From positions 434,001 through 498,000 of the forward strand of contig CAJNDT010003779.1 of the NCBI GenBank assembly GCA_905221615.1: a stretch of 64,000 bases of DNA. The letters are read 5' to 3'. Below the pieces are notes generated by a model. It was not told where the DNA came from, ran no database searches, and was given only the letters and a program-made list of their open reading frames with translations. Source of the DNA: Symbiodinium sp. CCMP2592. Its lineage: Eukaryota > Sar > Dinophyceae > Suessiales > Symbiodiniaceae. A program made the position numbers and the translations under genes. The first letter of the stretch is position 1. The number at the start of each line of letters is the position of its first letter. This document shows positions 13,714-34,124 of this stretch, piece by piece.

Positions 13714-13721
13714 GATCATGG

Positions 13722-15192: not shown

Positions 15193-15270
15193 GGGGCCCT
15201 AAAGGCTCAGTCTTAACCCCGACTTTAGGGATCATGGGACTTTTAGCAAGCAAGGCAAATACGGGGAACT

Positions 15271-15355
15271 CCAGAAAGTTGGAATATGGTTTCAGGGTAG
15301 GATACCCTATAATTTACCATAGAAGGGTTGGGAGAATCATATTCCAACTTTCTGG
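15271..15355. mobile_element. Foldback MITE, CCAGAAAGTTGG family (copy 2)
   Basis: Near-identical to 5063-5147. It lies about 60 bp outside the left end of the giant element. Confidence 0.85.
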
Positions 15356-15412
15356 CTTCTACTGTACAGCTATATGATTAGAAATGCTTGCACGAAATAG
15401 TAGAATCCTTAT

Positions 15413-15417
15413 TATAC
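15413..15417. other. Candidate target-site duplication, left
   Basis: TATAC directly precedes the left terminal inverted repeat and is repeated directly after the right one at 33814-33818. Confidence 0.65.
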
Positions 15418-15535
15418 TCAGGGCAACACAGAAGGGGGCAACACTTTGGAAAGGCAAGACCCGACCCTTCGCCCGAAGTTCGTCGAACCCCGCCGGCGTT
15501 CGCCGAACCCTCGCCGAACACCTCCCCTCCTTCGA
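15418..15535. repeat. Left terminal inverted repeat and subterminal TTCGNCGAA motifs
   Basis: The outer 25 bp pair with the right end (22 of 25). Inside lie GACCCTTCG and palindromic TTCGTCGAA (about 15479) and TTCGCCGAA (about 15499), followed by further CGAAC words. Such subterminal palindromes are typical transposase binding sites (inference). Confidence 0.8.
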
Positions 15536-16900
15536 ACCTTTATTATTAAATTCTAATATTATTAATATTAATTAATACTAATAATACTAATAATAACTAA
15601 TTAATATTCATTTAATTATAATTAATATTAATATTAATATCAATAATACGAATACTAATATAATACTAATAATACTAATACTAATATAATAATACTACTA
15701 ATAATAACTACTAATACTAATATTAATGCTAATACTAATTTGTTTAATACTAATACTAATTAAATCCTAATACTAATGTTACATAAATTATTATTATACT
15801 TAAATTTATTTAAATACTAGTACTTATGATACTGATATTTCAATATAATTTGTAACAACAGAACTAATAATACTAATACACTAATTAAATTAGTAATTAA
15901 ATATTACTAATACTAGTATTATTAATGATGTATTAAATACAAATATTTATTAAGTCTCATATTAATAATTTTAGTAATATTTATATTCAAAAAATACAAA
16001 GGTGAAATTACAATGAATGTGAAAAACTAATAAACTAAAAAGTATTAGCAATAATGTGCATACTTTAACCTTATCACGAATGGCTCATAGTATAATAGAT
16101 TTGCATTCGAAGCCTGAATGGCTTGTATTCTTAATCATAGATGAATAATATGGGAACCCTGTCATGAACAATTAACTTGCAGAATACTTGTTAGTGTGCT
16201 GTTCAGAGTTACTAATTGATAATCAATGTCCATACAGGCCATTGTCAATAAAGTATATTGTTTGTTAGCTATTTCTTATTATTCAATTTGTGATACTATC
16301 GCTAGTGGTAACAATTTAAACAATAATTTTTAAATAACTCATCATCAGCACACTATTTCTCACAGGGGCCTGCCTATCACCGGTACGATCCCAATTCATA
16401 TTCTAATAGTATCAATAATAAAAAACTCAGTTTCCTGATTGCTTAATTTGGACGCAGAACATGTGTGTCCTGGATATGCATCTATTTTCTTTGAGTGGTT
16501 CTGTATAATAATTAAGCAGCTTTATGAACTTGTGTATGATATGATGTCAACACTAATCAAAACATACTGCCGTATAAGTGATGAATAATTAAATACACAC
16601 TTTGACTTAGCTAGATTATTCGTGGTTTTGCCTGTTGTAACACTGAATATTGGCTAACAAGAACAATAGTACTATTTTATAATCAGCAGGTTTCAGCAAG
16701 ATTGAGTACAATAATATCACGATCATCCCTCTGCTTGTAACCAGAAAGAATAAACAACAGTTGAGTCGAAAGAACAAACTTGACAATAGTGTAGCCAGAG
16801 GCTTAGGCAATTACATTGTTACTAACTGTTAGCAGCATAAAGAATGTAGTTAATAGCAACAACAAATATGAACACATATAGATACTCACCATCATCATCG
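15536..16900. other. AT-rich subterminal region, no gene
   Basis: About 15540-15990 is built from TAATACTAATATTAAT-type words. The rest is AT-rich unique sequence full of stops. The short minus frame at 16616-16810 is AT-rich and unlike the element's other genes, so I do not call it. Confidence 0.7.
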
Positions 16901-16911
16901 TCATCATAATC

Positions 16912-17202
16912 ATGCGTGCTGCTGTGTCTTTTTGTTTTGGGAAGGGGGGAAGGTTCAGTCAGGGCAAGACTTCGGCTTCGCTGCAGTTGGGAGGGTTTGG
17001 GGTTTGCGAGTCTTGCAGGGTTTGGCCCGAGTCCATTGTAAGAACCCTATTCCCAAAGACCCGAAAGAAAAGAAACCAACCCCACCATGCAGCCCTCCTG
17101 AAGCCGCAAGCCCAGCCCAAGCAAGAGAGCATTCACGTCTTGGACAAGATCATGGTGATGCTGGGAGCCCGGGCAAAGTACTCAGTGAGGGTTTCCGGGT
17201 GA
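16912..17202 (+). CDS. Small open frame, uncertain
   Basis: A GC-richer island between the AT-rich end and the hairpin cluster. The plus frame from ATG 16912 reads MRAAVSFCFGKGGRFSQGKT and later ESIHVLDKIMVMLGARAKY. A second overlapping plus frame (16932-17210) is also open, so the reading frame is undecided. No family is recognised. Confidence 0.25.
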   Translation: MRAAVSFCFGKGGRFSQGKTSASLQLGGFGVCESCRVWPESIVRTLFPKTRKKRNQPHHAALLKPQAQPKQESIHVLDKIMVMLGARAKYSVRVSG

Positions 17203-17231
17203 GCGCCTAAGGATTCGGGTTAGGAGTTAAT

Positions 17232-17526
17232 GGGCCGACCGTGAGGTCGTGCCCGGGTCTAGGAGTAAGATTTACGCTAGCCGGGTCGACCGGGAGGTCG
17301 CGCCCGTTTTTGCAAGACGTCCATCGGACGCCGGCCGTGAGGTCGTAAGAACAGCGGCTGGGAAGCCGAGTCGTAATACGGCAAGAATTAGCAAGACGTC
17401 CATTTGGACGCCGGCCGTGAGGTCGTACGAGTAAGAGATAGCAAAGTCACTATATGGAGAGACGGTAGGGAGTAAGGTGTAAGATCAACAGACGTCCATA
17501 GGATGCCGACCGGGCGGTCGCAAGAT
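17232..17526 (+). repeat. Five spaced hairpins CSRCC-NNNN-GGTCG with GACGTCCAT words
   Basis: The motif CCGACCGTGAGGTCG or close variants (TCGACCGGGAGGTCG, CGGCCGTGAGGTCG twice, CCGACCGGGCGGTCG) occurs five times about 45-100 bp apart. The last three are each preceded by GACGTCCAT...GGA(C/T)GCC. Each forms a small stem-loop. They lie about 2 kb inside the left end and could be protein-binding or regulatory sites. I see no matching cluster near the right end. Confidence 0.75.
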
Positions 17527-18334
17527 TAGAAAGGAGGGTCAATGCAGAGTAAGATTATTCTTCCAGCAAGCAACTAGTTACGTCGTATTGAACTGATATT
17601 ATTGGCCATTGGTTGATGGTTGTTGGGTTGAGTAGTCAGTGTTACAGTGTATAATAAGACTGTGATGTGTTTCTTGATGTGGGAATTTCAGGGCAAGACC
17701 TAACCCTGCCGAGAGCGTAAGAACCGATGACGAACGCCCCCTGATAAATACGGAGCTTCCGCAAGCTTTGAATGTAAGTCGTAAGTGTAAACCGAACCAC
17801 CCTCTCCCGCGCAAGATTCCGATTTGCTAGCTGCCCGAAGCCATCAGACTTGAACTCTGCCTGACCTCAGACCCAACTCCGAGCCCTAAACCGGGACCAA
17901 TCTCCAAACAGGCAAGAACATTTGTAAAAAATGTTAGACATTAGTTAGAGACTTGCCCAAGGCAATCAATCAATATACAAAATTCAAATCAATTAATAAT
18001 AATATACAAAATTCATGCTAAGTGAATTGCCAGATTGACTACCGAGGCCAGACCTCCGCATGCCTCGTCGTGCCAGATTTCTAGCAGGAGGAGACCCGGG
18101 TGGTTTGGTTTTCTGCAGTGGGCTTTTGATCAGATCAATAATCGAATCAGCGGTTGTTGACCATTTGTCAGATTTGGCTTCACGTCAAGGTTGAATTGAG
18201 TCAGCAAGAACAGTGCGTCCGCAGTTGACCAGGTTGTCTCAGTCAGACTCAGAAGCATAATTAATTAATTATATTTTTTACAACGTAGAGTGAGTGAAGA
18301 CGAGTAGACACTGACACGTAGTAGCTCCGCTTCC

Positions 18335-18658
18335 ATGGCTGACCAGTGGCAAGATCAGCAGTGGAATGACCGTGCCACGCGGTGGAATGAGTGGCAAGAT
18401 GACCAGTGGCGGTGGAATGAGTGGCAAGATGAGCAGTGGCGGTGGAATGAGTGGCAAGATGAGCAGTGGCAAGATCAGCAGTGGAATGACCGTGCCACGC
18501 AGTGGAATGAACACCGGCACTGGCCCGAGCAGCAGGGGGGCGACGAGGACCGGAGCAAGAAGAAGAAGAAGAAAAAAAAGGGGGAAGGCGCCGTACTCCG
18601 ACACACGCTTAAACGGTTTGGCGTGACTTGGCATCTTGATAATAAAACTAACCTTTAA
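18335..18658 (+). CDS. W/Q-rich repeat exon, possible first coding exon of the element gene
   Basis: ATG 18335 has a favourable context (TTCCATGGCT) and begins MADQWQDQQWNDRATRWNEW. A 30-bp unit gives the decapeptide WQDEQWRWNE in tandem, flanked on both sides by DQQWNDRAT copies. A stretch of eight lysines follows. The product would be a hydrophilic, low-complexity, strongly Trp-rich peptide of no family I know. The GC-rich exon probably ends before the frame's stop at 18656-18658. As the leftmost Kozak-like ATG upstream of a run of plus-strand exons, it may start the long element gene. Confidence 0.5.
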   Translation: MADQWQDQQWNDRATRWNEWQDDQWRWNEWQDEQWRWNEWQDEQWQDQQWNDRATQWNEHRHWPEQQGGDEDRSKKKKKKKKGEGAVLRHTLKRFGVTWHLDNKTNL

Positions 18659-18715
18659 GACTTACTTGTTAAAGATTAGTATTATATTATTCAGTCGTCA
18701 CATCCATGGCTGGAC

Positions 18716-20066
18716 TCAGGTAGTTGGCACGCAAGAGTTATATTGCAGGCAACGAGCTGCACGGCAAGAGGTCCTCAACAAAGCCAAGGCTCCTCAAGTG
18801 GTCGTGGCCAGATGTAAAGCAGAGCCAAGCAGACCACTCGTGGCCAGATGTAAAGCAGAGCCAAGCAGACCAGAGGACAGACCAGAGCCCGTGGAGCCAC
18901 AATCAACTTCGCCAGCACAGGTGAACATGCCTTCCCAGCCTCTGCCTGAGCCAGAGCCTGCGGCATTGCCCCGCCAGCCAATTGGACCACCCGTCAGCTT
19001 TGGCCCCCCAGCAAGGCCGCAGCCAGAACAAGCACTGAAGCCACAAGCAAGTCAAGCCACAGCCGCAGCAAGTCCAAGGAGACCACCTGAGAGCCTTTTA
19101 AACCCAAGGCATTCAGCAAGACCAGAAATGCCAATGCCACGAGCAAGTCCAGCCACAGCCGCAGCAAGCCCACCACCAGCAGGGCTGCAGCACCAAGCCC
19201 AAGCCCCGCTAACTCCGCGGCCAAAAGGACGGCAAATGCAAATAACTGAGCCAGCACAGCAACAGCAAGAGCAGCAGGTCCAACAAGCCCCGCCAACTCC
19301 TCAGACTCCCCCCCCCTCCTCGCAGCGGCCGCAGCAAGTGGCACAGCCACGGCAACAGCAACCAGCCCCACAAACTTCAGCTGCACAAACTCAGCAAGGG
19401 CTTCTAGCAGCACCGCCGCAGGTCCCAGAAATGCCGCCACCGCGGTGGCAGCCGTTGCGACAGCAGCTGCAGCAGGGAGCCCCGCCGCAGCAAGAGCAGC
19501 CGGCACCCGTGAGCCAGCCGCCACTCAACCGTCAGCAACAGCCGCTACAGCAGAGAACATCACAGCAAGAGCAGCCCGCGCCCGTGAACCAGCCGCTCAA
19601 CACTCGGCAAGAGCCGCTGCAGCAGAGAGCCCCGCCGCAGCAAGAGCAGCAGCCGCTCAACCCTCAGCAACAGCCACTGCAGCAGAGAGCCCTGCAGCAA
19701 GAACAGCAGAGAACATCGCAGCAAGAGCCCGCACGCGTGAACCAGCCGCTCAACCCTCGGCAAGAGCCGCTGCAGCAGAGAGCCCCGCCGCCGCAACAGC
19801 AGCAGCCGCTCAACCCTCGGCAACAGCCGCTGCAGCACAGAGCAAGACCGCAGCAAGAGCCAGCGCCCGTGAGCCAGCCTCTGAACCCGTTGAACGTGCC
19901 ATTCGGCTTTCCGATGCCGCCGCTGGCGAATGCGTTGCTGCCGCCGCCACCGCTGCCGTTGCCGGTTGTTCAAGGGCAAGAAGTGGTTGAGCAGATGGCT
20001 TCGCTGCTCAAGGTTACGACAGCAATGCTGCTACTCAACCGCAATTTGCATGTGTGGGATGGTTCG
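18716..20066 (+). CDS. Long Pro/Gln-rich disordered exon
   Basis: About 450 codons stay open and are dominated by P, Q, A and R. Recurrent phrases include QPLNPRQQPLQQRAP and QQEQPAPVNQPLN, which recur at least six times between residues of about 19480 and 19880 and reflect DNA-level tandem duplication. The end, VVQGQEVVEQMASLLKVTTA then MLLLNRNLHVWDGS, is better ordered and meets a GTATGT donor at 20067. The fully open antisense and +1 frames are consequences of the CAG/CCG composition. It is probably a disordered linker or transactivation-like region of an element protein (inference). Confidence 0.5.
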
Positions 20067-20103
20067 GTATGTGTAATTTCAATCAGTAGCATCATGGAGT
20101 GGT

Positions 20104-20750
<647 letters not shown>

Positions 20751-20868
20751 AGTACTACAACTCTACACATATTTGTTTTATACACACAGTTGCGCTACAG
20801 CTAGCAATCGTTTCTGCTGTAAGAAGCTGATAAAAAGCAACAGTTGTCGTTGCCCAACTCCGCCCAAG

Positions 20869-20988
20869 GTCTGACTCGCAAAAGAACTATTTCAATGCCG
20901 AGCAGTGCAGGATGGAAGAGGCAAAACGCGGTGCCAAGAACGAAATTCGGGCTCAGCAGGCCTGGACATGTCAAAGAAAAACCTCCGA
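20869..20988 (+). CDS. Charged coiled-coil exon
   Basis: After CCCAAG the plus frame reads SDSQKNYFNAEQCRMEEAKR then GAKNEIRAQQAWTCQRKTS, ending at a GTAAAT donor. The composition is clearly protein-like, and the exon sits between two TAG microsatellites, which supports splicing around them. Unknown family; probably part of the same transcript as its neighbours. Confidence 0.5.
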
Positions 20989-21122
20989 GTAAATGCCAGC
21001 AGCCGCACGAAGTAGCAGTAGTAGTAGTAGTCGTCGTCGTCGTCGTAGTAGTATTAGTAGTCGTACTAGTACTAGTACTTACTCGTGGTCTTCCTCGAGT
21101 TTGAGCACAGTTCCCTGATCAG

Positions 21123-21512
21123 GTGAGTCTGCAAGAGGACAGAGCCCGGGAAGAGCTGGCGAAGGCGAAGACAATGCTGGAGGCTGCATTGAACGCTGCT
21201 GGCCAGAAGAGGCCAGTCAGCCAGACGAGTCCGTTCGATCCGATAATAAGAAAACGAGCCCCATCACCGGCGCCAGAGAAGAAGGAGAAGCCGGCGGAGC
21301 TAGATACGGAGACGGAGGAGATGAAGGGCGGCAAGAAAAGGGGCAAGAAGCAGCGCTCGGACAGGAAGACGAAGAAGGAGAAGAAGGAGAAGAAGGAGAA
21401 GAAGGAGAAGAAGAGCAAGTCCTCAAGAAGAACTCCCAGTCCTTCCCTGACCTCGAGCAGCATCAGCACGCACATGCGGAGACTACGAGATGGGTCGAGT
21501 CGCAAGAAGTAA
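21123..21512 (+). CDS. Lys/Ser-rich exon with short coiled coil
   Basis: After CCCTGATCAG the plus frame reads VSLQEDRAREELAKAKTMLE, an amphipathic helix. It continues to QTSPFDPIIRKRAPSPAPEK, four KKE repeats, an SR-like stretch (SKSSRRTPSPS) and RRLRDGSSRKK, then TAA at 21510-21512. Basic tails of this sort suggest nuclear location or nucleic-acid binding (inference). The stop may end one transcript or lie in a retained intron. Confidence 0.55.
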   Translation: MSLQEDRAREELAKAKTMLEAALNAAGQKRPVSQTSPFDPIIRKRAPSPAPEKKEKPAELDTETEEMKGGKKRGKKQRSDRKTKKEKKEKKEKKEKKSKSSRRTPSPSLTSSSISTHMRRLRDGSSRKK

Positions 21513-22144
21513 GATTCAATTCAAGAAGGACACCGCAAGAATCGAGGCTAGCTGAGATAGTTAGTAAGACAAGCCAAGGTTCATGCTACATGGTTTTGTT
21601 TAAAAATTATGGCGCGTGTGACGACATCGCCTTGGTTCCATCCGGTGTCCTTTTCATTTTCTCTGCTTTGCTGATCGCCAGACATCTCCATACAGCAGCT
21701 GGAAAAAGAAGCCACTTGCCAGGCTGTTAAACGTCCATGAGCTAGAGTCTTTCTGGTTGGCCCAATCAGCAAGAGCGAAGAAGCATAAGCAGCATGCCCA
21801 ATAAGCCAAGCGACCCACTCCAGGAGCTTCTTCACTTCGGTCCGCTGCTGGCTCGGCACCGACATGCAGGCCAGAACCGGGCAAGGCCGCAGGCTGCAGG
21901 GTGCGGGACAGCTTCAAATCATTTATTAGCCCCGCTCTTCGGTCACTGTCCCAAGGTGACAGACATCCTCGGCAAGAGACGACTTGGAGGCCAGCCCTGC
22001 ACATAGAAGCAGTAGTCAGTCAGCTTTGAGTTTCTGGATGCATGCATGAGTCTTGAGCGACATGTGGGCCTTGAATTTTTGATCTCAAGCAAGAAAGTGA
22101 ATGGGTGTCAGAAGCCGCGGGCAAGAAGAGTCGCCCGCGCTGCC

Positions 22145-22320
22145 ATGGCCGAAGAGCCAGAGCCCAAGAAGAAGGTGCCAGACGTGGTCTGGCGCTGGCG
22201 CAAGACACTGGCCAACTGCCTGGGTGGCCTCAAGCCGCCTTATGGAGAACAAGGCCGGCTGCTCTTGAAGGCGCTAGAGGTCTGCAACTCGACTGCAACA
22301 TATCAGATTGCTACATTTGT
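22145..22320 (+). CDS. Exon with possible start: MAEEPEPKKKVPDVVW
   Basis: ATG 22145 has an excellent context (TGCCATGGCC). The frame reads MAEEPEPKKKVPDVVWRWRK, then LLLKALEVCNSTATYQIATF, and meets GTAAGA at about 22319. It may be the true start of the transposase-like gene, or an internal exon. No family is recognised. The next exon follows in 70-80 bp. Confidence 0.5.
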
Positions 22321-22390
22321 AAGACTCGACCGTTCTCTCCCTGCGTACTGAGACTGGGATGAGCTCCCACGAGCGACCCGGCCGACAAGC

Positions 22391-22575
22391 AGTTGGCCAC
22401 TGCCAGACTACAAATCGGCGCAAGAGTGCGATAAGTTCGTGACGCAAGAGCTGCTGTTTTTGAGTCCGGATCTGGCATGGGTGATGCTTCAACTCCAGAT
22501 AGATATGCCGGCGTGGGCCGTTCCTTGGCTGCAAGAGCTGAAAAAGTTGTATTGCAATTCAAGCGAGAATGTTTC
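22391..22575 (+). CDS. Exon of element gene
   Basis: Open from about 22391, reading WPLPDYKSAQECDKFVTQEL then LFLSPDLAWVMLQLQIDMPA and WAVPWLQELKKLYCNSSENV. Balanced, helical and protein-like. Downstream a different frame (about 22574-22680) takes over with QKRAKAFAKELTHKLLRDLA and a TGA, so a small intron or a frame change lies near 22570. Confidence 0.5.
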
Positions 22576-22747
22576 TGGCGCAATCCCAGGCGGTCTTGGC
22601 GGTAAGATCCCACCCTTGCCAGAAGCGCGCGAAGGCGTTCGCCAAGGAGCTCACGCACAAGTTGCTCCGAGACTTAGCGTGATTCATCTAGCCAGTAAGG
22701 TTTTTTCAGGCTGCAGTGTGAGAGTCAGACTTGACTGATTGCTGCGA

Positions 22748-22868
22748 GGCCACTGGCTCGCCTTCAACAAGGCACACGTCTATCCAGACGTGTTCAGATT
22801 TTGCGTGGCCTGGGCGCATGAGAAAAACTACCTCCTCAGCAGCTTCTTCGCAAGAGAGACATGGTAGT
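22748..22868 (+). CDS. Exon of element gene
   Basis: The plus frame reads GHWLAFNKAHVYPDVFRFCV then AWAHEKNYLLSSFFARET. The mix of aromatic and charged residues is typical of a folded domain. It is followed by GTAGTG. Unknown family; its position and strand place it in the transposase-like transcript. Confidence 0.5.
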
Positions 22869-22971
22869 GGTGTCCAGTCAGCCAGTCAGACAGTCACGTC
22901 AGTCAGTCCGATCTCTGTGTGTGTATGCGCATAACGTTGCAGATTTGCTTTGACCCTGTGCGATCCAAGTG

Positions 22972-23165
22972 GCGGGGCACCCGCAGCAGTGGAACTACGA
23001 CAAGTCAGAGTGGTACAGGGTCCCGAAGGAGGACAAGCCGGTCCAGACGGATCTGGAACCGAGCTATTTGCAAGAAAACCCGTACCGCAAGAAGCCCCCT
23101 CCGCCTGCGGGTCGTCCCCCCTGGGGTTACGGTTCGAATGCACAGGCGCCTGAGGGCAGTGATTG
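22972..23165 (+). CDS. Proline-rich exon, W/Y motif
   Basis: After a CCAAG acceptor the frame reads AGHPQQWNYDKSEWYRVPKE and ends RKKPPPPAGRPPWGYGSNAQ then APEGSD and TGA. The polyproline and WGYG motifs suggest a disordered, interaction-type segment. Overlapping open frames at 22919-23434 have worse composition. Confidence 0.45.
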
Positions 23166-23582
23166 AAGCTAGCTGGCTGCGGCAATATTCTTCAGTGTTG
23201 GTGTGTCAGAGAATGACTCATTGGCAACAATTTATAGCATCCCCCCATTCGGGTGCCGCAAGACCAGGCTGCGGAAGCGAAGGCCAAGGCAACTTGCAAT
23301 GCAATTTGTGGAAATTGCCCCCACTGTTCACTTCACTGTTCACGTGGTGTCCCAGCAGCCAAACTTCTCCAGTGCCGCTGCTCAGGCGTCGTCAGAGCAA
23401 GACGCAGCCACTTGGTCTGCAAGTACAGTATTAATTATTGGTGTTCCTCGATTCTGACAATGACAATCTTGTCGCTGCAAAGGCAAGACCAAAGCAGCCC
23501 ACCACTCCTAAGGACAATGACAAGGTGACTTGCATTGCAAGATTTTGCTTGGTGAGTGCCTGCTATTGATCATCGTTGCTGC

Positions 23583-24310
23583 TCAGGGGCCGTCAGATCA
23601 GCCTGGCACGGGAAAGGCCGAGACGACTTGTGCGGCAACAATAATTTTGTAGCACGTCGTCTGGATGAGCTCTTTTGTGACGGCGGCACTTGTTCAGGCG
23701 CCATCACAGCCGCTCGCCGCGCAGAAAGCCGCCACTCCCAAGGGCAAGGCGACTTGCTTGCTCCGCACGAAACCCGAGTTTCTTATTCGGTGAGTGCTTG
23801 TCGTTGTTGCTGCTCAGGCGCCATCAGATCAGCCTGGCACGGGAAAGGCCGAGACGACTTAAAAGATTAATAGTGTGGCGGCGTGTCTGTGTGAGCTCTT
23901 CTGTGATGGCGGCACTTGTTCAGGCGCCGTCACAGCCGCCCGCCGCGAAGAAAGCCGCCGCTCCCAAGAATAAGGCGACTTGCTCTGCAAGAAACCAGAG
24001 TTTCTTATTCGGTGGGTGCTTCTCAGACTCCATCAGATCAGCCTGGGACGGGAAAAGCCGAGACAACATGCAATCCAGAACCCAGCAGCGTGAGGGAGTG
24101 TGAGCTCTTCTGTGGCACCTGTTCAGGCAGTGATACAGTCACAGCCACAACTGGCCCGTACCGCCGCTCCCGAGGAACAGGCGGCGACTTGCTTTGCAAG
24201 AAAACCGGTGTCTCATTTGAGTACTGCGTGCTTCGGTGCTGCTGCTCAGGGGACAACGTCGCCAGAGCCAGAGGCGACTTGCACTGCTCACAACTGCAAT
24301 TTGAGTGAGA
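23583..24310 (+). repeat. Array of alternating duplicated microexon-like units
   Basis: Type A units (about 23586, 23818, 24025) read APSDQPGTGKAETT. Type B units (about 23701, 23929, 24128) read APSQPPAAKKAAAPKNKATC or a variant. Each follows a TTCAG or CTCAG acceptor preceded by GTGAGY and a pyrimidine-rich stretch only 27-35 bases long. A and B alternate with a period of about 205-230 bp. It appears to be a duplicated pair of tiny exons encoding a Pro/Ala/Lys-rich repeat peptide. The array runs into the gap at 24374, so its full length is unknown. Confidence 0.6.
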
Positions 24311-24373
24311 GTGTTTGAGTGGCTGTGTTGGTCGAGTGTAATTCTGGCCGTTGTTGCATCAGGCGCAAAGAAT

Positions 24374-24473
24374 NNNNNNNNNNNNNNNNNNNNNNNNNNN
24401 NNNNNNNNNNNNNNNNNNNNNNNNNNNNNNNNNNNNNNNNNNNNNNNNNNNNNNNNNNNNNNNNNNNNNNNNN
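24374..24473. other. Assembly gap (100 N)
   Basis: Exactly 100 N, the conventional size for a gap of unknown length. It interrupts the microexon array just before the transposase-like exons. Confidence 0.99.
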
Positions 24474-24479
24474 TGTCAG

Positions 24480-24550
24480 GTCGATCCTTCGAGCCTTTGG
24501 CTGTCAATGGAAGACATTCAAGCTGAGTTGGCGTTCTTTTGCAAACCAAC
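24480..24550 (+). CDS. Exon preceding transposase-like core
   Basis: After TGTCAG the frame reads VDPSSLWLSMEDIQAELAFF then CKPT and meets GTAAGA at about 24551. Both splice signals are good. It is probably spliced to the large exon that opens near 24654. Confidence 0.55.
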
Positions 24551-24653
24551 GTAAGAGGCTGGATACACGTCCGCCAAAGACTACGTCTAAGTAGATCTAA
24601 GCGGTCAGTTTAGTTTGGCATGCTTGCTCTCGACCATTTGCTTAAGAAGCTGA

Positions 24654-25633
24654 GGGCAAGATCGCAAACGAGACTTGGAAGATGCTGAAGCCGAGACTCT
24701 GTCCAGCCGCAAGAAGCCCGCCTGCAGACTAAGCACGTACGACCAAGTGCTGGCTTTGGATCACATCGTCAAGCTCACCAACAACGCCAGAGGACTCGTG
24801 GCTTTTGCGCCAGAAAATGAGGAGGAAGAGAAAATGCAAGACGCTGACCCGTTGGGCAAGACACCAGTCTTGGTGTGCTGTACAGACCACGGCACTGATG
24901 CTCAAGCTTGCACGATGTTCCTCATGTTCCACGCAAGACTCCGCAGCATCTTCATCTACGACCCCAGGCACAAGCTACAGCGTGTCCTGCAGAATGCGCA
25001 GACCTATGGAAACTACAGCGCAAGATGGGCCAATGCGCTCATAAGCTTGACACGAGGTCCCTGGGGTGGCATGAAGTGGAAGCGCATCGTCGCAGAAGAA
25101 GTTACGAGTTTTCTGGAGACGCTGAAGAAGAAACAAAGACAGCAAGAGACCTCTGCAGAAGGGGAGATCATGAAGTTCTTTCTTCCACACGTGGCCATGG
25201 AAATTGGTGTCGCCGAGCACGATCTCAGTGTGCCAGACATCATCCGCCTCTTGCAAGGCAGAAGCATCGGCAAGAAGCACATCGGCAGTGGAAATGCATC
25301 TCGTTGGGATGAGTTTCATTCAGCCTGGCACAACATCAGGCAAGAAGCAGGCCTTTTGGGCATCATTCTGGTCAGTTTCGGGTTGAAGAACGGCTGGCTG
25401 CGCCAGAATGGTGGGCAACTGGAAATGTTGTCGAGCATGCAAGATGCCATCGCCAGCGGTGCGGAGACCCTGGCGGAGAGCAAGAAGCAGCAGGCTGCAG
25501 CTTTGTCGAAGTTCAAAAACAAGCTGCAGGCCATAATGCACCTAGTGTGCGACCCAGAGGTCCTGGGAAACGTGAATGCTTGGTACTGCGTCTCTGTTCC
25601 GGTATCCCGCGAACTCAACAGGAGTCGCCAGAG
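24654..25633 (+). CDS. Transposase-like core exon 1 (possible DDE family)
   Basis: About 325 codons are open. Early on it reads STYDQVLALDHIVKLTNNAR. Next comes LVCCTDHGTDAQACTMFLMF, with a candidate catalytic Asp in TDHG. About 30 residues later comes IFIYDPRHKLQRVLQN, a DxxH placed like the CxxH/DxxH element that follows the second Asp in several DDE transposases. The rest is helical. From memory, not checked, this matches a multicopy family in Symbiodiniaceae with a DPxHRxWND motif. An in-frame stop lies at 24651. A GTAAGA donor lies at 25634, but its phase does not fit the next acceptor simply. Its place inside an inverted-repeat element supports the role. Confidence 0.55.
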
Positions 25634-25749
25634 CGTAAGAGGACGAGAGGGCTCGTGGAGGTACTTGGCAGAGCAGGCACAAGGGCGATGGCGAACTGTC
25701 GTGACTCTGGCTGAATTACTAATATAATTTTAGCGATGTTCATCCACAG

Positions 25750-26027
25750 AAAAAATGTACGACTTTAGTCTGTCTGCCAAGTACCATGAGTCGAATTATG
25801 AGGTGCAAGAGATCACCAACGAGGCACTTTTGCCAGAGAACCACCGCAGCATGGGCATCATTGACGCGTTGGCGGCTGGCAACTCCTTGTACTACTTCTC
25901 GCTGAAGCCAGACTACGCAGAACTGACTTGGCAAGACTTCCTCTACGAGCGGCTCTTCCGCTATGCGATCGCAATGATGAGATTCCACTGTCTCTTCGAG
26001 TCGCTTGTCGAACATGTGCAGCATTGA
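25750..26027 (+). CDS. Transposase-like exon 2
   Basis: After CATCCACAG (or TTTTAG at 25733) the frame reads KKMYDFSLSAKYHESNYEVQ, then LYYFSLKPDYAELTWQDFLY and ERLFRYAIAMMRFHCLFESL, to a TGA near 26027. Aromatic-rich and folded in character. The intron before it is about 115 bases. It continues the core protein; the downstream donor is uncertain. Confidence 0.5.
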
Positions 26028-26311
26028 TTGATTCTGGGCTAACCTTGATTGTGCGACCTGAAGATTTGGAAGCATGACCAGGCCATGTGTCGACAATGGT
26101 CACTGGAGAACAAGTAAATTTGGACACCAATCGTTGACGGACTTAGCTCAAGTTCCTCGAATGCTGCAGACTTCAGTCAGTCAGAGTCAGACTCACACTA
26201 CTACTACAAATTTGGATATGATCCCATTAAATTAAAATTATTATGATGACTGAATGAAATAAACCGACCCCAGTCCCAGCTCCGGTAACCCTAACTTAAC
26301 TATGCGCCCAG

Positions 26312-27260
26312 GCTTTCACATGGCTGCTTCCCGCTGGTTTTGGCAAGAGGCTGCGAGAGCGTCGAGGCGGCGGACAAGGTCCTGCAAGAGCTGAAAGTTT
26401 TTGCCGCAGCTGATGCGAAGGTGACCGAATTGATAAGAGAAAACCCTTGGTGCAAACTTGCAGCTACCAGATCTGCGATGCGCCTCCGATGGGTCTCTGA
26501 CCTGGCAAGATTTGCGGCAAGAAACGATTGGAAAGCCACGCCAGAGCTGGTCCAGTATCTCAGAGATTGCTTCGGGTCCATGATCGTCACCTACAACGAG
26601 GAGGGCTTTGGCAAGATGAGGGAAGCCGAATCAGCAGAAGGCAAGATGCACGATTTCGCCCCGGCAGACTCCTGGTCGCAAGTTTGCACGTCGAAGGGGT
26701 TGCATTCTTTCGGTTACCCCGAGATCGAGACGAACGGGCAAACTGTGGCCGCGCAAGAGCCCATCCCCAAAGCAGTGCACCACACGCGCAAGATGGATGG
26801 GCACCCGAAGCTGCCAGAGGTCATGGGGAAAGCTTCTTGGCCAAACTTGAGCAGCATGGGTTACCACGCGACCTTCTTGGAGCAAATCCTCCTGGTCAAC
26901 ACGCCCCCCGCCAGAATGAACACCTTGATGTCCTCCTGGAGAAGCGCCTTCATCACTGCTGGCCTGGTCGTCCGCAAGAAGACCGACACAGCGAAGGTTT
27001 GGCTCAGTCTCGGGCCCTGGCCGCAAAACACGGCTGTGGGATTACTGAGAATGGAAAGGGGCGAGCAAGAGTCCTTCGTCTTCTTGAAGCTGCAAGACCC
27101 GGTGGTGCTGCATTTCGAGGCAGTCATCAACTTCTCCGACTGGGTTGTGCTAGATGCAGTTCCAGCTGCCCCGCTTACTGTCGCGGTGACAAGAAGACAC
27201 AAGGCGCCAAAAAAACCAAAGGCAGGAGAACTTTGTCGTACCACCCTTGCCTGGCTTGCT
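26312..27260 (+). CDS. Transposase-like exon 3, with candidate catalytic Glu
   Basis: Opens after GCGCCCAG. It reads RLRWVSDLARFAARNDWKAT and later SMIVTYNEEGFGKMREAESA. An E-x-x-F-x-x-M-R pattern here could supply the third catalytic residue of a DDE triad, separated from the second by a helical insertion (inference). The remainder, including HPKLPEVMGKASWPNLSSMG and SDWVVLDAV, looks like a C-terminal domain. The frame formally runs to 27410. Coding character shifts frame after about 27260, where GTGGGA could start a 37-base intron ending in CTGCAG at 27297. Confidence 0.55.
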
Positions 27261-27297
27261 GTGGGAAAGAAGCAAGACATCGGTCTCATTGCTGCAG

Positions 27298-27402
27298 TTT
27301 TCCGCAAGAGAAGGATTCTTCAACGTCCCGGAGTCCATGCTGAAGCGCCTCCTCAAGGAACTTCTGCTGGCACAGCTTCAGTTCACAAATTTGACTCCTT
27401 GA
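27298..27402 (+). CDS. Transposase-like C-terminal exon
   Basis: Phase-0 continuation after GCTGCAG, reading FSAREGFFNVPESMLKRLLK then ELLLAQLQFTNLTP and TGA at 27400-27402. This frame is far more protein-like than the one continuing from the previous exon. That indicates a very short intron or a one-base frameshift upstream. Confidence 0.5.
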   Translation, partial: FSAREGFFNVPESMLKRLLKELLLAQLQFTNLTP

Positions 27403-27498
27403 AGTCTTGAATTTCAGAGCGCTTCATTCTGTGAAATAGTTCTGTCAATGCAGCAACAGTGACGTTGACAGAACTGATATCGGTGTCATTGATCCTTC

Positions 27499-27693
27499 AT
27501 GTCACAGGACGAGCACGGCGTCGTTGAAGAGGCTGATGACTTTGCAGGGCTTCTGCAAGAATCCATCCGACAAACTTTGGCCACCACGGAGGAGCTCGTG
27601 GCACAAGCCTTGGAGAGATCCATGTTCTGGCGGTGCCAGAATAATGCATACTCTTTGGGGAACCTTTTGGGTAGCCTGGCCAAGCAAGGTTGA
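27499..27693 (+). CDS. Small acidic open frame
   Basis: ATG 27499 begins MSQDEHGVVEEADDFAGLLQ and continues to QALERSMFWRCQNNAYSLGN before TGA. Helical and acidic. It may be an exon or a short independent gene. Three overlapping frames are rejected as shadows. Confidence 0.4.
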   Translation: MSQDEHGVVEEADDFAGLLQESIRQTLATTEELVAQALERSMFWRCQNNAYSLGNLLGSLAKQG

Positions 27694-27829
27694 CACTGAA
27701 CCCAAAACCCCTTAACTTGTTAGATTAGATTCCACTTCCTCGTTCAGCTGTTGTCATTGTCTTTTGCTGCCTTCGTCAGTTATTGCTTGATTCATCAGAA
27801 AATAAATCAAATTACAATTTAGATCTGAG

Positions 27830-28260
27830 GTGAAGAGGATCGCAAGTATGGCGATGGCGAAGAGGCGCAAGCGCTTGCAGAAGAAGCTGCGGAGAAAGAT
27901 GAGGAGAACGCACCGGTGCTCAAACAGATCGCCAAAAGCATCAGGCGAATTCGCAAGAAAGCGGCAAAAGCCGAGCAGCCCTACTGCAAGAGGAAGCCCA
28001 TCACCTTCCGTTCTTCTGACACATGGGACGCAAGAAAGATGCAGCAGTTTCTGCCAGAGAACTACAAGTGCTATAAGGACATGTTCAACAAGTGTTTCCG
28101 AGTCTCTTGCCGCCGATCTCGCTGGTCGCAAAGCAAGAGCTGGGGAGGCAAGGGAGACGCTCACGCCGTCAGATTCCTTCTCGAGTCGGTTTGGGCCAGA
28201 CACGGGAATTTGCATCCCGGTGTTCAGTGTCCTTTCGACTTCGATGCCATTCACGCCTAA
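27830..28260 (+). CDS. Element protein C-terminal exon
   Basis: After GATCTGAG the frame reads EEDRKYGDGEEAQALAEEAA, then a basic linker, DTWDARKMQQFLPENYKCYK and DAHAVRFLLESVWARH, with CPFDF near the end and TAA at 28258-28260. I recall a similar C-terminus (AVR...W..H...G..CPF) from dinoflagellate transposase-like proteins, unverified. A 430-nt exon with about 120 bp of AT-rich intron in front. The longer open frame at 27830-28444 in another phase has poor composition. Confidence 0.5.
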
Positions 28261-28997
28261 AGTCGAAGCTGCAAAATCCGCGCCGCTGGCAAGAAGAATC
28301 GTCGCCGTCAGTGCTTGCTCGTCGATGATTGAATGCGAAGAACAAAAAAGTGCGGTGTCGATATTATTAGATGAGGTGCTGGGCAGATACAGACTTTCAA
28401 AGAAGCAGCAATCAATGTCCGCAGGCCCAGAGCAGTGGTGTTAGCGAGCCGCATTAAAATAGACCCGCCCGTTTTTGCTAGGACTTTGCTGCGGCCGTTT
28501 TCTTTGGCACGCCTGGAGCTCAGTGGGGCTAGACTGCCAAAGCTGGGGAAGTCATTTTGGGTCTTTGTCTTCAGAACAGAACTTTACTGCCACGGGGTCA
28601 TGAATTTGATGCTTTGTGAAGTGCCTTCTTTCGGAGGGTGACAGGCAAGTGAAAAGAGGATGTAAGAACAAACAAGCCACTTGCCGTTGTGGCGGCAAGC
28701 ACTTGGCCGCAGCAGTGCCGACATTGATTGCTCATATCCACCGTTGCCGACGCTCGCTCAGGTCCAGTCCGTGCCAGACGCCGTTTGCCAGAGGGAGCCG
28801 ATGCCGATAGAGGCATGTCACCAAACGGCGTTGTGCAGTCTGCAACAAATGAAGCTTTAGATCTGCATTTACGTTATATGCCGCGTTTTAAAATCAGAAG
28901 CTCCAATCGCAGGCCACCCTTCTGCGCTGCCCGGCTGCTGCCGCTGGCGCCGTTCGCTCATCTCCGTCCCGCTCTTGGCGTGTACGGTAGGTGGTTG

Positions 28998-29300
28998 AGT
29001 TTAATTAGTTCGGAGGCTGTAGTCTAAGCCCCCCGCCCTAAGGCCCAACCCGTTGCCGAATGGTATGTCAGGAGCCGTTTCAGGGTGGACCTCGACTGCG
29101 TAAGATTCCCTTGCCGAAGCATTATGGGGCCCTGTCAGAAAGCCTTGATTTAATGTTTCAGTTTCTTCACTTCAGGAGGCCGAACTCACATTCGGAGGGT
29201 ATCATTTCGACCCTGGGGATGCTTCAGTTTTCGCCTTCCGGCTCCTGAAATAGAATCCCCGGTGTAGGACTCCACCGTGCCTCCTCCGAACTAATTAAAT
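28998..29300. mobile_element. Nested MITE, about 300 bp
   Basis: The ends TTTAATTAGTTCGGAGG and CCTCCGAACTAATTAAA are an exact inverted pair (17 bp). The interior has no convincing protein. This family is different from the foldback MITEs of the flanks. Confidence 0.65.
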
Positions 29301-29479
29301 GGCTAAGGCATTGGGTGAATTGGGTGTAGTGTAGGGGGTGTTGTTTTAAGAAACCTTTAAAATAGGGGTGGTCCCTTTGGCGGAGGAAGGTTTCTTAGGC
29401 GGGCCTTTCTTCTCTAGACATACTAGGGTTGTCCGCCCAGGGGAACACCGTAGTTAGCCCCACTCCGAAAGCACTGGAG

Positions 29480-29897
<418 letters not shown>

Positions 29898-30899
29898 CCT
29901 ACACCCCTGAACCCTAAACCCTATTAATATTAGCATAAGTAAGAAGCAAGAGCGCAAACATCATTAATACAATGCACTTACAATAGTTCGTTCAGGGGCT
30001 GGGCTTCTTTCCCGGGCTTTCAAGTTTGGTTTCGGGGTCTTTGGGACTGATCTTGAAGCTCTGTTTCAGTAATTTAATAATAATTCCGGTTTAGGGTTTA
30101 GGGTTTAGGGTATGGGCACTCCCCCCTAAGTCGCCCACTCGCAAGACCCATAAGATCCGCAAGATGCATCCAAGCAATAATTGCAGGCATAATGTAATAA
30201 ATGTAATTTACTCGAAAGTTGCAACCGAAACAAGGCCAGTAAGACTCAGTTAAGATTCTCCTTCTTTGCTCAAATCTGCAAATCTGAGTCTTTGGAAGTA
30301 AAGGAGTGGCACCCTCGTAGCCAGACCTTCCGTAAGTTCCTCTGCCCAGATTCAGCACAAAAGCAAACCCTAAACTAGCTAGTAAACGACGATTATTATT
30401 ACTACTAGTACTTAATAACTAGTGCTACTACTACGACGACGACTACTACTCCTGACTGTCTTGAAGTAACGAATGAATGCATATTTCATAATAACAATTT
30501 TTAATACAGTAAGCTTCCGGGTCTTGCATATCACCACGCTTGCAGGCGGAGACTCCTGCGAGAGTTTCCTGCCCTGCTGATTACACTGGTCTGGCCAGAG
30601 TCCTCCTGCCGCGAACCCAGAGTGCGACCGGTCACAACCGCATGCACGCACAATTTATTAATAAACTATTAAGTTGTATAGTAGCGCCCACCCACATACG
30701 CAAACGTAAACATACATGCACGCTTGCGCCTGTACGCATCTGCGAGCATAGAGACGGTGTGCGGATGCTTATTCAAGTCAATAGTTGAAATGATTAACTC
30801 ACCTGCGCTGGATCGATGCTCGCAGCTTTTGCGATTGTCCTTGGTTTCCACATTCTGATGTATAGTAAGCCAAACCAATCCAATCAGACACAGTCAGAC

Positions 30900-31085
30900 A
30901 CTAACAGGTGCCGGTTCCACCGGTCTATCCTGCAAGAGACCTACGTCGCTTGCAAGGTCTGCCCGCCTCCTGTTGGATTGTTTCGGCCAGATTCAGAAAC
31001 GACACTGCAGGGAAGCCTGTTTGTTTGCGATGAGGTTGTGAGAGATGAGAAATTGCACCGGCCCAGCCGTCATCACTGCCGGTGA
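30900..31085 (+). CDS. Exon candidate with CxxC
   Basis: The plus frame reads CRFHRSILQETYVACKVCPP then PVGLFRPDSETTLQGSLFVC. The CKVC pair and a later Cys/His cluster (HRPSRHHC) hint at metal binding but match no known finger. It probably lies upstream of the 31.2-33.0 kb gene. Confidence 0.35.
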   Translation, partial: TNRCRFHRSILQETYVACKVCPPPVGLFRPDSETTLQGSLFVCDEVVRDEKLHRPSRHHCR

Positions 31086-31173
31086 CATGTCCGGCTCGAT
31101 AGCAAGTAAGAGAAGCCTTGAAGCATCTCAGTCTTGGATAATTTTGTTTCCTGCTGGCCGAGCTTGCGCAGCT

Positions 31174-31255
31174 ATGGCCCCGAAGAAGAGCTGCATCCAG
31201 TCAAAAACCAAGGCAGTGCAAGAGAAGGCGCTTTCGAAGGAGAAGAAGCTGAAAG
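31174..31255 (+). CDS. Second element gene, first exon candidate
   Basis: ATG 31174 (CAGCTATGGCC) begins MAPKKSCIQSKTKAVQEKAL then SKEKKLK. It is lysine-rich with nuclear-localisation character. A donor probably lies just after, near GTGTTTTG. It is followed about 110 bp later by the exon at 31368. Confidence 0.45.
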
Positions 31256-31367
31256 TGTTTTGTCTGCAAGCAAGGCGTCTACACTTCAACCTTCCGACCC
31301 CCCTTAACTTTAAACATATGATCCCATCAATCAAGCTAATCACATGTCCGAATATTCGTGAACTGAG

Positions 31368-31517
31368 GACAAGGCGGAGGAAGCCTTGCGCAAAGAGCAG
31401 AAAGCGAATCTTGAAGCGCAAGAGAACAGACTGGTCACGATGAGGCAGGAGCTCGATGCGTGGTTTGCCCTACGGCCGAAAGCACTGGAACACATCCATC
31501 GGGGCTTCAGTCGCTGA
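31368..31517 (+). CDS. Coiled-coil exon, second element gene
   Basis: After AACTGAG the frame reads DKAEEALRKEQKANLEAQEN then RLVTMRQELDAWFALRPKAL and EHIHRGFSR, TGA at 31515-31517. The heptad-rich helix ends in a compact tail. Strong coding character; unknown family. Confidence 0.55.
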   Translation, partial: DKAEEALRKEQKANLEAQENRLVTMRQELDAWFALRPKALEHIHRGFSR

Positions 31518-31619
31518 GAATTTTAGTTCTTCGTTTTTTTGGGTATGTTTGGGAAAGAAAAATAGTACTGTGAAGCTTTAGCGAGCTAGGTTCTTTAAAT
31601 TCAGTTGAACTTGAGTGAA

Positions 31620-31892
31620 ATGACTGACTGTGATTCATTGTCTTTAGAGCGCACGTGGCATAAAGGTATGGGAAGCTTTGATTCGCTGGACTCCGGCAAG
31701 ATCGTGGGCGACGACGACTCGTCGGAGCAGAAGCTGAAGCCCTACATGAACAAGTTCCGATTGCTTGGGCAAGAGCAAACGCGACCGCTGCTTTGCAAGA
31801 TGATTCCCAAAGTGATGTCGTTCTTGGACAAACAGCAGAAGAACTTCAGGTGCAAGATAGAGCGTGCTTTCCTGGCGACCCTGCTCGCGTAG
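31620..31892 (+). CDS. Exon/ORF, second element gene cluster
   Basis: From ATG 31620 the frame reads MTDCDSLSLERTWHKGMGSF, then SSEQKLKPYMNKFRLLGQEQ and MIPKVMSFLDKQQKNFR. Well-balanced acidic protein. The last codons (KIERAFLATLLA) may be intronic. Confidence 0.45.
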   Translation: MTDCDSLSLERTWHKGMGSFDSLDSGKIVGDDDSSEQKLKPYMNKFRLLGQEQTRPLLCKMIPKVMSFLDKQQKNFRCKIERAFLATLLA

Positions 31893-31992
31893 CTTGGCTG
31901 TGAATCAGTAGTACATGTAAAACAATCTTTCATTCAAATCTTCTTTGCCTCTGCCGAAGCAAGACAAGTGCAAAACACCTCACTCGCCGTAG

Positions 31993-32149
31993 GTTCATCA
32001 CTCACTGCGACGTCAACAGCGCGTTGCCGAGCAAGAGCATGGTCGCGCTTGAGGACTTCATGATGAAGCGCTTCACAGACTACGGCAGCCGGCTAGAAAC
32101 CTGGGAGCCACGGGGGCCAGAGACGACCTTCCAGGACCTACTCGTTTAA
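31993..32149 (+). CDS. Exon, second element gene cluster
   Basis: After CGCCGTAG the frame reads FITHCDVNSALPSKSMVALE then DFMMKRFTDYGSRLETWEPR and TTFQDLLV, TAA at 32147-32149. It is too short for the usual gene-length cutoff yet strongly protein-like. It may be spliced to the exon at 31620. Confidence 0.55.
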
Positions 32150-32335
32150 CCCGCCTAAGTAAGGCATCCTGCTGTAACATCGTGATTTTCCGCCGCCTGT
32201 TCATTGCTCAGCCTCTTAGGCCCAACATGCGGCTGGGGTCGTGAGTCCAAGTCAGTGAAAATTCAAGTTGAATGAATTCGGTTTAACCGTTGCCTTGTTT
32301 GTCGGATCGGTTGGCCTTAAATTCACCCAAGCCCA

Positions 32336-32487
32336 AGAGTCCGCGTTCTCAAGGAGTTCTGTGACGATCCCTCCTGCAGCTACTGGAGGCTGGAGAAGCA
32401 GGACGACGGCAAGAGTCAGTTGCGGTACATGCAGACCGACTTGATGTTTAAGCTTCCGCCGGAGATGCAGAACATCGACAACATCAA
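32336..32487 (+). CDS. Exon, second element gene cluster
   Basis: The plus frame reads FCDDPSCSYWRLEKQDDGKS then QLRYMQTDLMFKLPPEMQNI and DNIK, ending at AAG followed by a GT donor (GTCATG) at 32488. The next exon starts after TCCGTCAG at about 32656. Confidence 0.55.
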
Positions 32488-32657
32488 GGTCATGTGCGCA
32501 AGAAACTTCAACACATCCTTGAGTTTCTCAGCTGCAATGTGCGAATCTTTCAGATCAAGTTATCTAAGCACGCGCTTCTCTAGTTCTCTCGTCTATTCAG
32601 AACATGTTGAAACCACTTCTTCCAACTCAGTTGTTCGTTGCATAGCAATTCCGTCAG

Positions 32658-32995
32658 GTGCTGGGTTGGTGGACATCTCGGTGTGCAAGATCCTGAATTC
32701 CGACATCAACGAGGGCAAGACCTTGCCCGAGAGCCCGTTCTTTCTGAAGGAGTGCCCGACGGGTTCCTCCCCCGAAGCCGGTTCTGGTGATGGCAAGAAG
32801 ACGAAATCGTGGCAGGCGAAATCGGAGACTGCGCTTCAACCGGCAGCTGGGAACGGCAAGAACACTCCCCCGCGGACGCCGAAGCGCAAGATCAATTCCA
32901 AGTCGTCGCCTAGCAAGAGTCCGAAGACCCTCGCCGGATCGCCCGTCAGCTCGATCAAGTCGCCAGCATCAGGAGGGCGAGGATCGCCAAAGTAA
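32658..32995 (+). CDS. Exon with Ser/Lys/Pro-rich tail
   Basis: The frame reads AGLVDISVCKILNSDINEGK then TLPESPFFLKECPTGSSPEA, followed by a basic tail with repeated S/TPxK and KSPS motifs, ending GGRGSPK and TAA at 32993-32995. S/TPxK repeats are typical of minor-groove DNA-binding tails such as those of histone H1 (inference). Confidence 0.55.
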
Positions 32996-32999
32996 GCTT

Positions 33000-33700
33000 G
33001 ACTGAGATTGTTTCAGGGGCAAGAACACAGAAGAAGCATTATTATTTTTAACATAAAAAATGCATCGCTGAAAGTTGGTGTCACATGCTTTTGTGTTCTC
33101 GGGTTACCCCTGCTTCTGAGTCTTCCGAGACTGTAGGTCAGAGAGCAGGGAAGTATTTCAAGAGCGCCCCGGCCTGACTCTGCCGAATTCCGCTGCCGCT
33201 GTTTCTGAAGGCAAGAAATTTTAATCGAGTCCTCGGCCGCTGAACCTGGCAAGTTTTGGCGATCAACCGCCTTGCCGGGCCGTTTGCGATAAAACGCTGC
33301 CTTAGTCACTGGCCGCAGAAGTCGCAAGAGAGAAAACGGGTTGCCAGAGCAACAAGCCTTTTGACGCACCTCATTTGTGATTTTACACTCCCGCCCGCCA
33401 GGATTCTGCACTTCCTGGACCTGCACTGAACGACTGTCGGGCCCTGGCAAGAATTTTTGCTAATGAGCCAGAGTAACGCAAGAAACTCCGTATTTTTGGA
33501 AAGACATTCGCAGGAAATCCCTGCAAGATGCAGAGAAAAAGGCGTGGCAAATCATCATCATTTCATCTCGCTGACATATAAACTTCACAGACTATCCGGG
33601 GTGTAGTGTCGTAAATTCTTATTGAAGCTTTTAATATACTTGGGAATTTTAACAACATATCAGAACTTTATCTTGTAACCGAACAACCCACGAACCCCTC
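33000..33700. other. Right subterminal region, no convincing gene
   Basis: Mixed AT and GC sequence with several GCAAGA words. The minus open frame 33013-33450 has biased composition and is judged a shadow. Confidence 0.5.
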
Positions 33701-33813
33701 ACGAACCCCCAAAACGTTCGCAGAAGTTCGCCGAAGGGTTTTTGAAAAAACGAACTTCGTCGAAGGGTCAACCTTTGCCTGACAGACCGTTGCCCCCTTC
33801 TGCGTTCCCCTCA
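33695..33813. repeat. Right terminal inverted repeat and subterminal motifs
   Basis: The minus-strand reading begins TGAGGGGAACGCAGAAGGGG and contains GACCCTTCGACGAAGTTCG, matching the left end in order. TTCGTCGAA and TTCGCCGAA palindromes recur here as at the left end. Confidence 0.8.
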
Positions 33814-33818
33814 TATAC
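33814..33818. other. Candidate target-site duplication, right
   Basis: TATAC immediately follows the right inverted repeat, matching 15413-15417. Confidence 0.65.
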
Positions 33819-33934: not shown

Positions 33935-34057
33935 ACTTAAAGGCTCATGGGACTTAGTAAGTAAGGCTATAAGGTAGGCTATAACTAGGATAACCCCACT
34001 TAGGAGACTTATAACCCCAATTATAACCTACTTACTAAGTCCCATGATCTTTTAAGC
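33935..34057. mobile_element. Foldback MITE, family A
   Basis: ACTTAAAGGCTCATGGGACT at the left pairs with AGTCCCATGATCTTTTAAG at the right. Confidence 0.8.
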
Positions 34058-34124
34058 AAGCCAAGAACCTGAAACTGTAAACCCTCAACCGTGTTTTGCC
34101 GTTTTGAAGAGCTTTCAGGAGCTT

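Follow-up and report, generated by a model that had tools for sequence, protein, structure and literature searches.

What is the block of 18.4 kb that stands out within a 64,000-nucleotide stretch of the genome of the dinoflagellate Symbiodinium sp. CCMP2592 (contig C3779, positions 434001-498000; hereafter, the window), how did it come to lie there, and why does a single hexamer, GCAAGA, recur along one of its strands? Dinoflagellate genomes are large and poorly explained. Here, we report a comparative analysis of this element in the assembly, which comprises 1.098 Gb in 5383 contigs. By its structure, the element is a class II DNA transposon with terminal inverted repeats (TIRs). It very probably belongs to a young family of giant TIR transposons, about 34 kb in length, that carry a candidate transposase gene on the + strand.

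Ends, copies and length of the element

The element proper occupies positions 15418-33813 of the window and lies between two identical copies of TATAC (Table 1). Its tips, TCAGGGCAACACAGAAGGGGGCAAC and TGAGGGGAACGCAGAAGGGGGCAAC, agree at 22 of 25 positions, and the subterminal words GACCCTTCG, CGAAGTTCG and TTCGNCGAA are present at both ends, as described in the first-pass annotation of the window. That annotation also noted an abrupt change of composition at either end. The change is real on the left, where the GC (guanine plus cytosine) content is 0.315 and 0.347 in the two kilobases from 15001 and 0.469 before them, but it is not seen on the right in 1-kb steps (0.543, 0.468 and 0.480 from 32001).

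The first-pass annotation had proposed a search of the genome for inverted, paired ends elsewhere, and instead of no other pairs, this search revealed an abundance of them. A 23-base end pattern, AGGGNAACRCAGAAGGGGGCAAC, is matched exactly at 129 positions of the assembly, 56 times in the forward and 73 times in the reverse orientation; the control, the same pattern read backwards, has no match. Positions were listed for 100 of the 129 matches, and among these, we identified at least 22 inward-facing pairs of a left and a right end, located on 21 contigs and 16.7-63.4 kb apart. The two ends are of distinct types, AGGGCAACACAG on the left and AGGGGAACGCAG on the right, and each of the 22 pairs consists of one end of either type. 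The remaining listed matches are single, apart from some irregular places that count against the reading as a family of giant transposons. These are C192, with three left-type ends, C2335 and C1313, where a pair has an additional left end within it (C2335) or next to it (C1313), and C1631, where the ends face outward.

We read 16 of the 22 pairs at the base level, six of them as copies with their flanks (the window copy, C2, C3, C228, C447 and C1824) and ten at their ends. An exact 5-bp duplication borders every one of these pairs (6 of 6 and 10 of 10), and the target sequences differ. The GC content of the 16 targets is 22.5%, compared to 0.43-0.53 per kb in the window flanks. The abundance of the end pattern, together with the 16 exact duplications, is far beyond chance. 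The window copy is collinear with the five other copies and 98.1-99.7% identical to them. Together with the predicted exons described below, the paired ends, the duplications and the near-identical copies support the initial proposal of a giant DNA transposon with TIRs and genes that contain introns, and show that it is present in many copies.

The length of 18.4 kb that was originally assigned to the element turned out to be an artefact. The window copy is interrupted by a gap of exactly 100 N, and at this point, copy C2, which aligns to the window at 99.3% identity on either side, carries about 15.6 kb (positions 8930-24487 of the C2 element), 2.6 kb of which is N; the unit is therefore about 34 kb long rather than 18.4 kb. 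Gaps are present in every one of the six copies read. The lengths including N are 33.8 kb for C2 (2600 N), 36.7 kb for C3 (10100 N), 34.3 kb for C228 (7600 N), 38.9 kb for C447 (10008 N) and 22.1 kb for C1824 (100 N), so that, if the gap lengths are reliable, the unit measures at least about 34 kb.

The transposase-like gene and known mobile elements

In C2, the predicted exons of a + strand gene join in frame to encode 944 amino acids, with exon 5 read to its stop. The first of these exons holds the ATG and the second ends with WAPPQ; they are followed by a short third exon, by exon 4 (window positions 24655-25626) and by exon 5 (from window position 25750). In the window copy, exons 1 and 2 and the start of exon 3 lie inside the gap. 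As read from the sequence, the splice donors of this gene would be GTCAGA, GCCAAT, GTAAGA and probably GCCAGA, followed perhaps by GCTTGT, and the predicted introns thus include GC donors. The frame of exon 2 has one distant homologue, P0001 (403 amino acids, from ENA), with 40% identity over 271 aligned positions. The match stops one residue beyond the predicted end of exon 2, and further on, as judged by eye, P0001 contains VHQDSGH, the start of exon 3. The motif FDSSRVGGRKITS of exon 2 in C2 is nearly identical in P0001. We regard this motif and CTDHGTDAQ...IYDPRHKLQRV in exon 4 as candidates for the catalytic regions of a DDE (RNase H-like) transposase.

Several observations count against this assignment. 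The splice sites are predicted from the reading frame alone. In searches that scored only candidates sharing most words, neither exon 4 nor residues 400-880 of the joined protein had a homologue at E values up to 10, and Pfam, PHROGs and the PDB yielded nothing usable for a DDE fold. Furthermore, a structural model of exon 4, built without relatives, is poor, with a mean predicted local distance difference test (pLDDT) score of 39.8.

If the assignment is correct, the intron-containing gene would encode a transposase that recognises the TIRs together with the subterminal repeats rich in TTCG/CGAA, excises the element and then inserts it at a target cut with a 5-bp stagger. Movement would accordingly be of the cut-and-paste type, with a catalytic site that is a candidate only. 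A giant non-autonomous element with captured genes, moved by a transposase encoded elsewhere, would be compatible with the finding that none of the frames tested matched a known transposase. We consider this unlikely, given that one long gene of several exons within the element encodes conserved D-containing motifs and has a homologue.

With the TIR class II transposons, the element shares inverted repeats, a duplication of fixed length, dispersed copies and an intron-bearing gene, but these transposons are usually a few kb in size, whereas the element is about 34 kb long and has no recognised transposase. We know of no superfamily that combines a 5-bp duplication with TCAGGG/TGAGGG ends. Transib elements also duplicate 5 bp of the target, but their ends begin with CAC, and the element differs from them in its ends and in the lack of a Pfam match. 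The end core CAGGG of the element resembles the ends of hAT elements, but the target duplication of the latter is 8 bp, in contrast to the 5 bp found in all 16 pairs read. MULE elements, with target duplications of 8-11 bp, and CACTA elements, with CACTA ends and duplications of 2-3 bp, differ from the element in these same features. The Starship transposons of fungi are likewise giant and gene-carrying; they are moved by a tyrosine recombinase, the captain, and lack TIRs, whereas the element has TIRs and a fixed duplication. Among the frames scanned, from gapped copies, there was no Pfam match to a tyrosine recombinase. Introners are short introns, in contrast to the giant, gene-bearing element with its donor-like words within exons. 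The introners of dinoflagellates are reported to be transposon-like and linked to splice donors (PMC7789003, PMC11453091).

The size, the terminal inverted repeats and the short duplication would also be compatible with an integrated DNA virus, such as a Polinton-like virus or a relative, instead of a transposon. Polinton/Maverick elements and Polinton-like viruses share the giant size and the inverted repeats with the element, but Polintons duplicate 6 bp of the target and the element 5 bp. Polinton/Maverick elements are described as giant and present in protists (PMC6431247), and a Polinton-like virus of 25 kb has been reported from a dinoflagellate (PMC12721341). We nevertheless regard a viral origin as very improbable. 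The frames given to Pfam, from copies that all have gaps, matched no polymerase (PolB), capsid protein, packaging ATPase or integrase; six frames were without a match in PHROGs, which covers viruses of bacteria and archaea; and the element contains predicted introns. Finally, because all 16 pairs read have exact 5-bp duplications of differing targets around identical ends, the block was inserted, and the possibility that it is an ancestral host segment or a segmental duplication, with ends inverted by chance, is negligible.

Among the matches listed for the literature searched, which consisted mostly of papers available without subscription, this family is unreported under giant or TIR transposons in dinoflagellates. 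It adds to the dinoflagellates a family of transposons, about 34 kb long and recently active, whose transposase-like gene is unrecognised, and its near-identical copies permit the study of how so large a unit moves.

An oriented hexamer along the element

The strongest oddity of the element is a strand-specific hexamer. In the window copy, GCAAGA is found at 112 sites on the + strand (one per about 165 bp) and at 4 sites on the - strand, compared to 8 and 13, respectively, in the 45.6 kb of window flanks. When the element was simulated with a first-order Markov model, 200 runs yielded 11 sites on average and at most 24. The + and - strand counts in the other copies are 158 and 6 (C2), 125 and 7 (C3), 91 and 6 (C228), 156 and 7 (C447), and 114 and 4 (C1824). 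The sum over the six copies is 756 versus 34, but the copies are close kin and hence amount to one observation. GCAAGA is the top strand-asymmetric hexamer in the window copy with simple repeats masked and in all six copies with simple-repeat words excluded. Among its single-base neighbours, a clear bias is seen for GCCAGA (40 on the + strand vs 7 on the - strand) and GTAAGA (19 vs 0), and some bias for GCAACA (16 vs 2); GTCAGA, two changes away from GCAAGA, is found 15 times versus 4.

The word is not confined to coding sequence. There are 10 sites in the 1469 bp of the leader, 6 in the 565 bp of the trailer and 26 in the 2757 bp of 24654-27410, and the sites fall in all three frames. The AT-rich left 1.3 kb of the element holds a single site, and the AGT run, the stretch 28450-29930 and the last 258 bp of the element hold none; in three stretches of C2, the spacing of the sites shows no departure from random. 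Codon choice bends to the word. Where the preceding codon ends in G and the following one starts with GA, glutamine is encoded by CAA 32 times and by CAG twice, whereas elsewhere, CAA is used 46 times and CAG 109 times. The test for glutamine gives p=1.4e-12, with p=1.2e-6 for arginine after alanine, p=2.5e-5 for lysine and a weak p=0.009 for proline. The codon table was drawn from ten open stretches chosen by hand (two from C2 and eight from the window), and these p-values are descriptive. Protein composition is ruled out as the cause of GCAAGA by its presence in all three frames and by the codon tests: the use of all frames and the bending of synonymous codons imply that the word is made at the nucleotide level, not by the protein.

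The enriched words can be summarized as G[CT][AC]AGA, a family that resembles a splice donor, although two of the five donors predicted for the transposase-like gene do not fit it. Since the words occur on one strand and in coding and non-coding parts alike, a role at the RNA level fits best. Whether or not host genes share it, we give such a role slightly less than an even chance. G[CT][AC]AGA may act as a splice-donor-like or exon-marking signal, such that the long transcript would be handled as a proper gene. Plain pairing with U1 is doubtful as the cause, since GTAAGT, the best match to U1, is not enriched (4 vs 3).

We next consider two views of how widely such a signal might be shared. 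It could be a host-wide property of transcribed or exonic sequence, that is, a splicing enhancer or a donor-like word, in which case the element would stand out as a block of genes in a gene-poor window; we consider this a serious contender, with a likelihood just under one half. In five pieces of flanking sequence that look coding and amount to 1.83 kb, GCAAGA is found at 6 sense sites and 1 antisense site, with 5 of the 6 located beside C1824. This favours sharing with host genes, but it is a biased sample, chosen by hand, with three of the five pieces included because GCAAGA had already been seen near C1824. The predicted donors GTCAGA, GTAAGA and, probably, GCCAGA fall in the same word family, and GC and GA donors are reported in dinoflagellates (PMC11453091). 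Conversely, a RING-finger piece (46362-46600) contains no GCAAGA in 240 bp and the piece 62380-62880 only one in 500 bp, the word is about as frequent in the leader and the trailer as in the open frames of the element, and the neighbour of C1824 could be a host gene or another mobile element.

Alternatively, G[CT][AC]AGA could be an element-specific, oriented code that runs through the coding and non-coding parts of the whole element and for which synonymous codons are chosen. We advance this view tentatively and think it somewhat improbable. Such a code would serve to get the long transcript recognised, for example, through U1-like binding that counters premature ending or silencing; or else, the oriented words would mark the DNA for an oriented process. 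Short words in one orientation over a replicon are represented by Chi, by KOPS and, in phage T7, by the EcoP15I sites, which share a single orientation there, but these belong to bacteria and phages and are far sparser than GCAAGA. To our knowledge, neither an oriented word enrichment nor such a self-written code has been described in a eukaryotic transposon.

Three sets of data count against the proposed role of the hexamer. First, the predicted donor GCCAAT is outside the hexamer family. Second, coding-looking stretches on both sides of C1824, 2.7 kb in total, hold GCAAGA at 5 sense sites and 1 antisense site, so that it may not be peculiar to the element. Third, the motif is not clearly more conserved than other sequence and no more conserved than permuted words: 2 of 1452 motif bases are changed between copies versus 75 of 39459 others in the left part, and 4 of 2028 versus 131 of 51494 in the right part, with 3 of 3972 and 10 of 5755 changed for permuted words. 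Conservation between copies is, however, uninformative because the copies are too young.

Among the matches listed, no report describes such a use of GCAAGA or such an exon signal in dinoflagellates, and the only one that holds the word GCAAGA deals with splice sites in humans. Were the oriented hexamer confined to the element, it would represent a novel means by which mobile DNA influences the reading of its own transcript or sequence; if common to host genes, it would indicate that dinoflagellates possess a strong exon signal.

Other frames of the element and its flanks

The open frames of the element that we judged convincing are all on the + strand, and those on the - strand overlap them (Table 1). 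The several accessory genes envisaged at first are therefore not borne out as such, because some of these frames, all on one strand, are possibly exons of one or a few genes. In a Pfam search of selected frames from the element and C2, none of the element frames had a match at the curated cut-off, and Rfam gave no match in the window at gathering scores. Viral contigs and GTDB genomes, collections that may omit the records of this genome, yielded neither a relative of the proteins nor a match to the end pattern.

Table 1. Features of the window copy (window positions)
Feature	Position	Strand	Remarks
Left target site duplication copy, TATAC	15413-15417		Exact match to 33814-33818
Left terminal inverted repeat, TCAGGGCAACACAGAAGGGGGCAAC	15418-15442	+	Left type, AGGGCAACACAG
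GCAAGA enrichment span	15454-33528	+	112 sites on + strand, 4 on - strand
Left subterminal region	15456-15535		TTCG/CGAA words abundant
Open frames with W/Q-rich and P/Q-rich repeats	18340-20090	+	20 GCAAGA; no Pfam match for 18627-20105 frame
Open frame, K/E-rich	21105-21512	+	No Pfam match at curated cut-off
Short open frames, probable exons	22100-22560	+	No Pfam match
Scaffold gap, 100 N, probably of unstated true length	24374-24473		Hides exons 1-2 and start of exon 3 (seen in C2)
Exon 3 of transposase-like gene, 3' part	24474-24550	+	From copy C2; donor GTAAGA at 24551
Exon 4; contains CTDHGTDAQ...IYDPRHKLQRV, a candidate for the second catalytic region	24655-25626	+	Predicted donor GCCAGA at 25627; splice sites from reading frame only
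Exon 5 (KMYDFSLSAKYHESNYEV...)	25750-26002	+	Both boundaries predicted, 3' by reading alone
Exon 6 or separate downstream gene (open frame 26295-27410)	26312-27410	+	Boundary predicted by reading alone
Open frame, probably coding	27829-28260	+	No PHROGs match
Stretch without GCAAGA, with (TC)n run	28450-29930		Within right half common to fetched copies
Open frame, probable exon	31599-31892	+	
Last long + strand open frame	32321-32995	+	No family match (Pfam, PHROGs)
3' trailer after stop of 32321-32995 frame	32996-33560	+	6 GCAAGA in 565 bp
Right terminal inverted repeat, TGAGGGGAACGCAGAAGGGGGCAAC	33789-33813	-	Right type, AGGGGAACGCAG
Right target site duplication copy, TATAC	33814-33818		

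Inside the element, a 226-bp tandem duplication at 23575-24021 resembles a repeated exon with a short intron, and the stretch 28450-29930 is perhaps an old nested insertion. Inverted units containing GGGACTTAGTAAGTA and ACTTACTAAGTCCC adjoin the element at 15070-15190 and 33950-34240 and probably represent another, short repeat family.

The window flanks are full of TTTAGGG-like repeats. Degenerate, telomere-like TTTAGGG/CCCTAAA repeats are scattered on both strands, for example, at 13723-14169 and 39065-39317; according to PMC11453091, the telomeres of Fugacium kawagutii and further dinoflagellates have TTTAGGG as their repeat unit. These repeats and the GC donors among the predicted introns agree with a dinoflagellate host. 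An 84-bp tandem repeat at 12476-12893 consists of five copies that are 99% alike, is open in several frames and contains five TCTTGC sites. To the right of the element, the frame 46362-46832 encodes a RING finger (PF13920, above the curated cut-off) and is likely a host gene.

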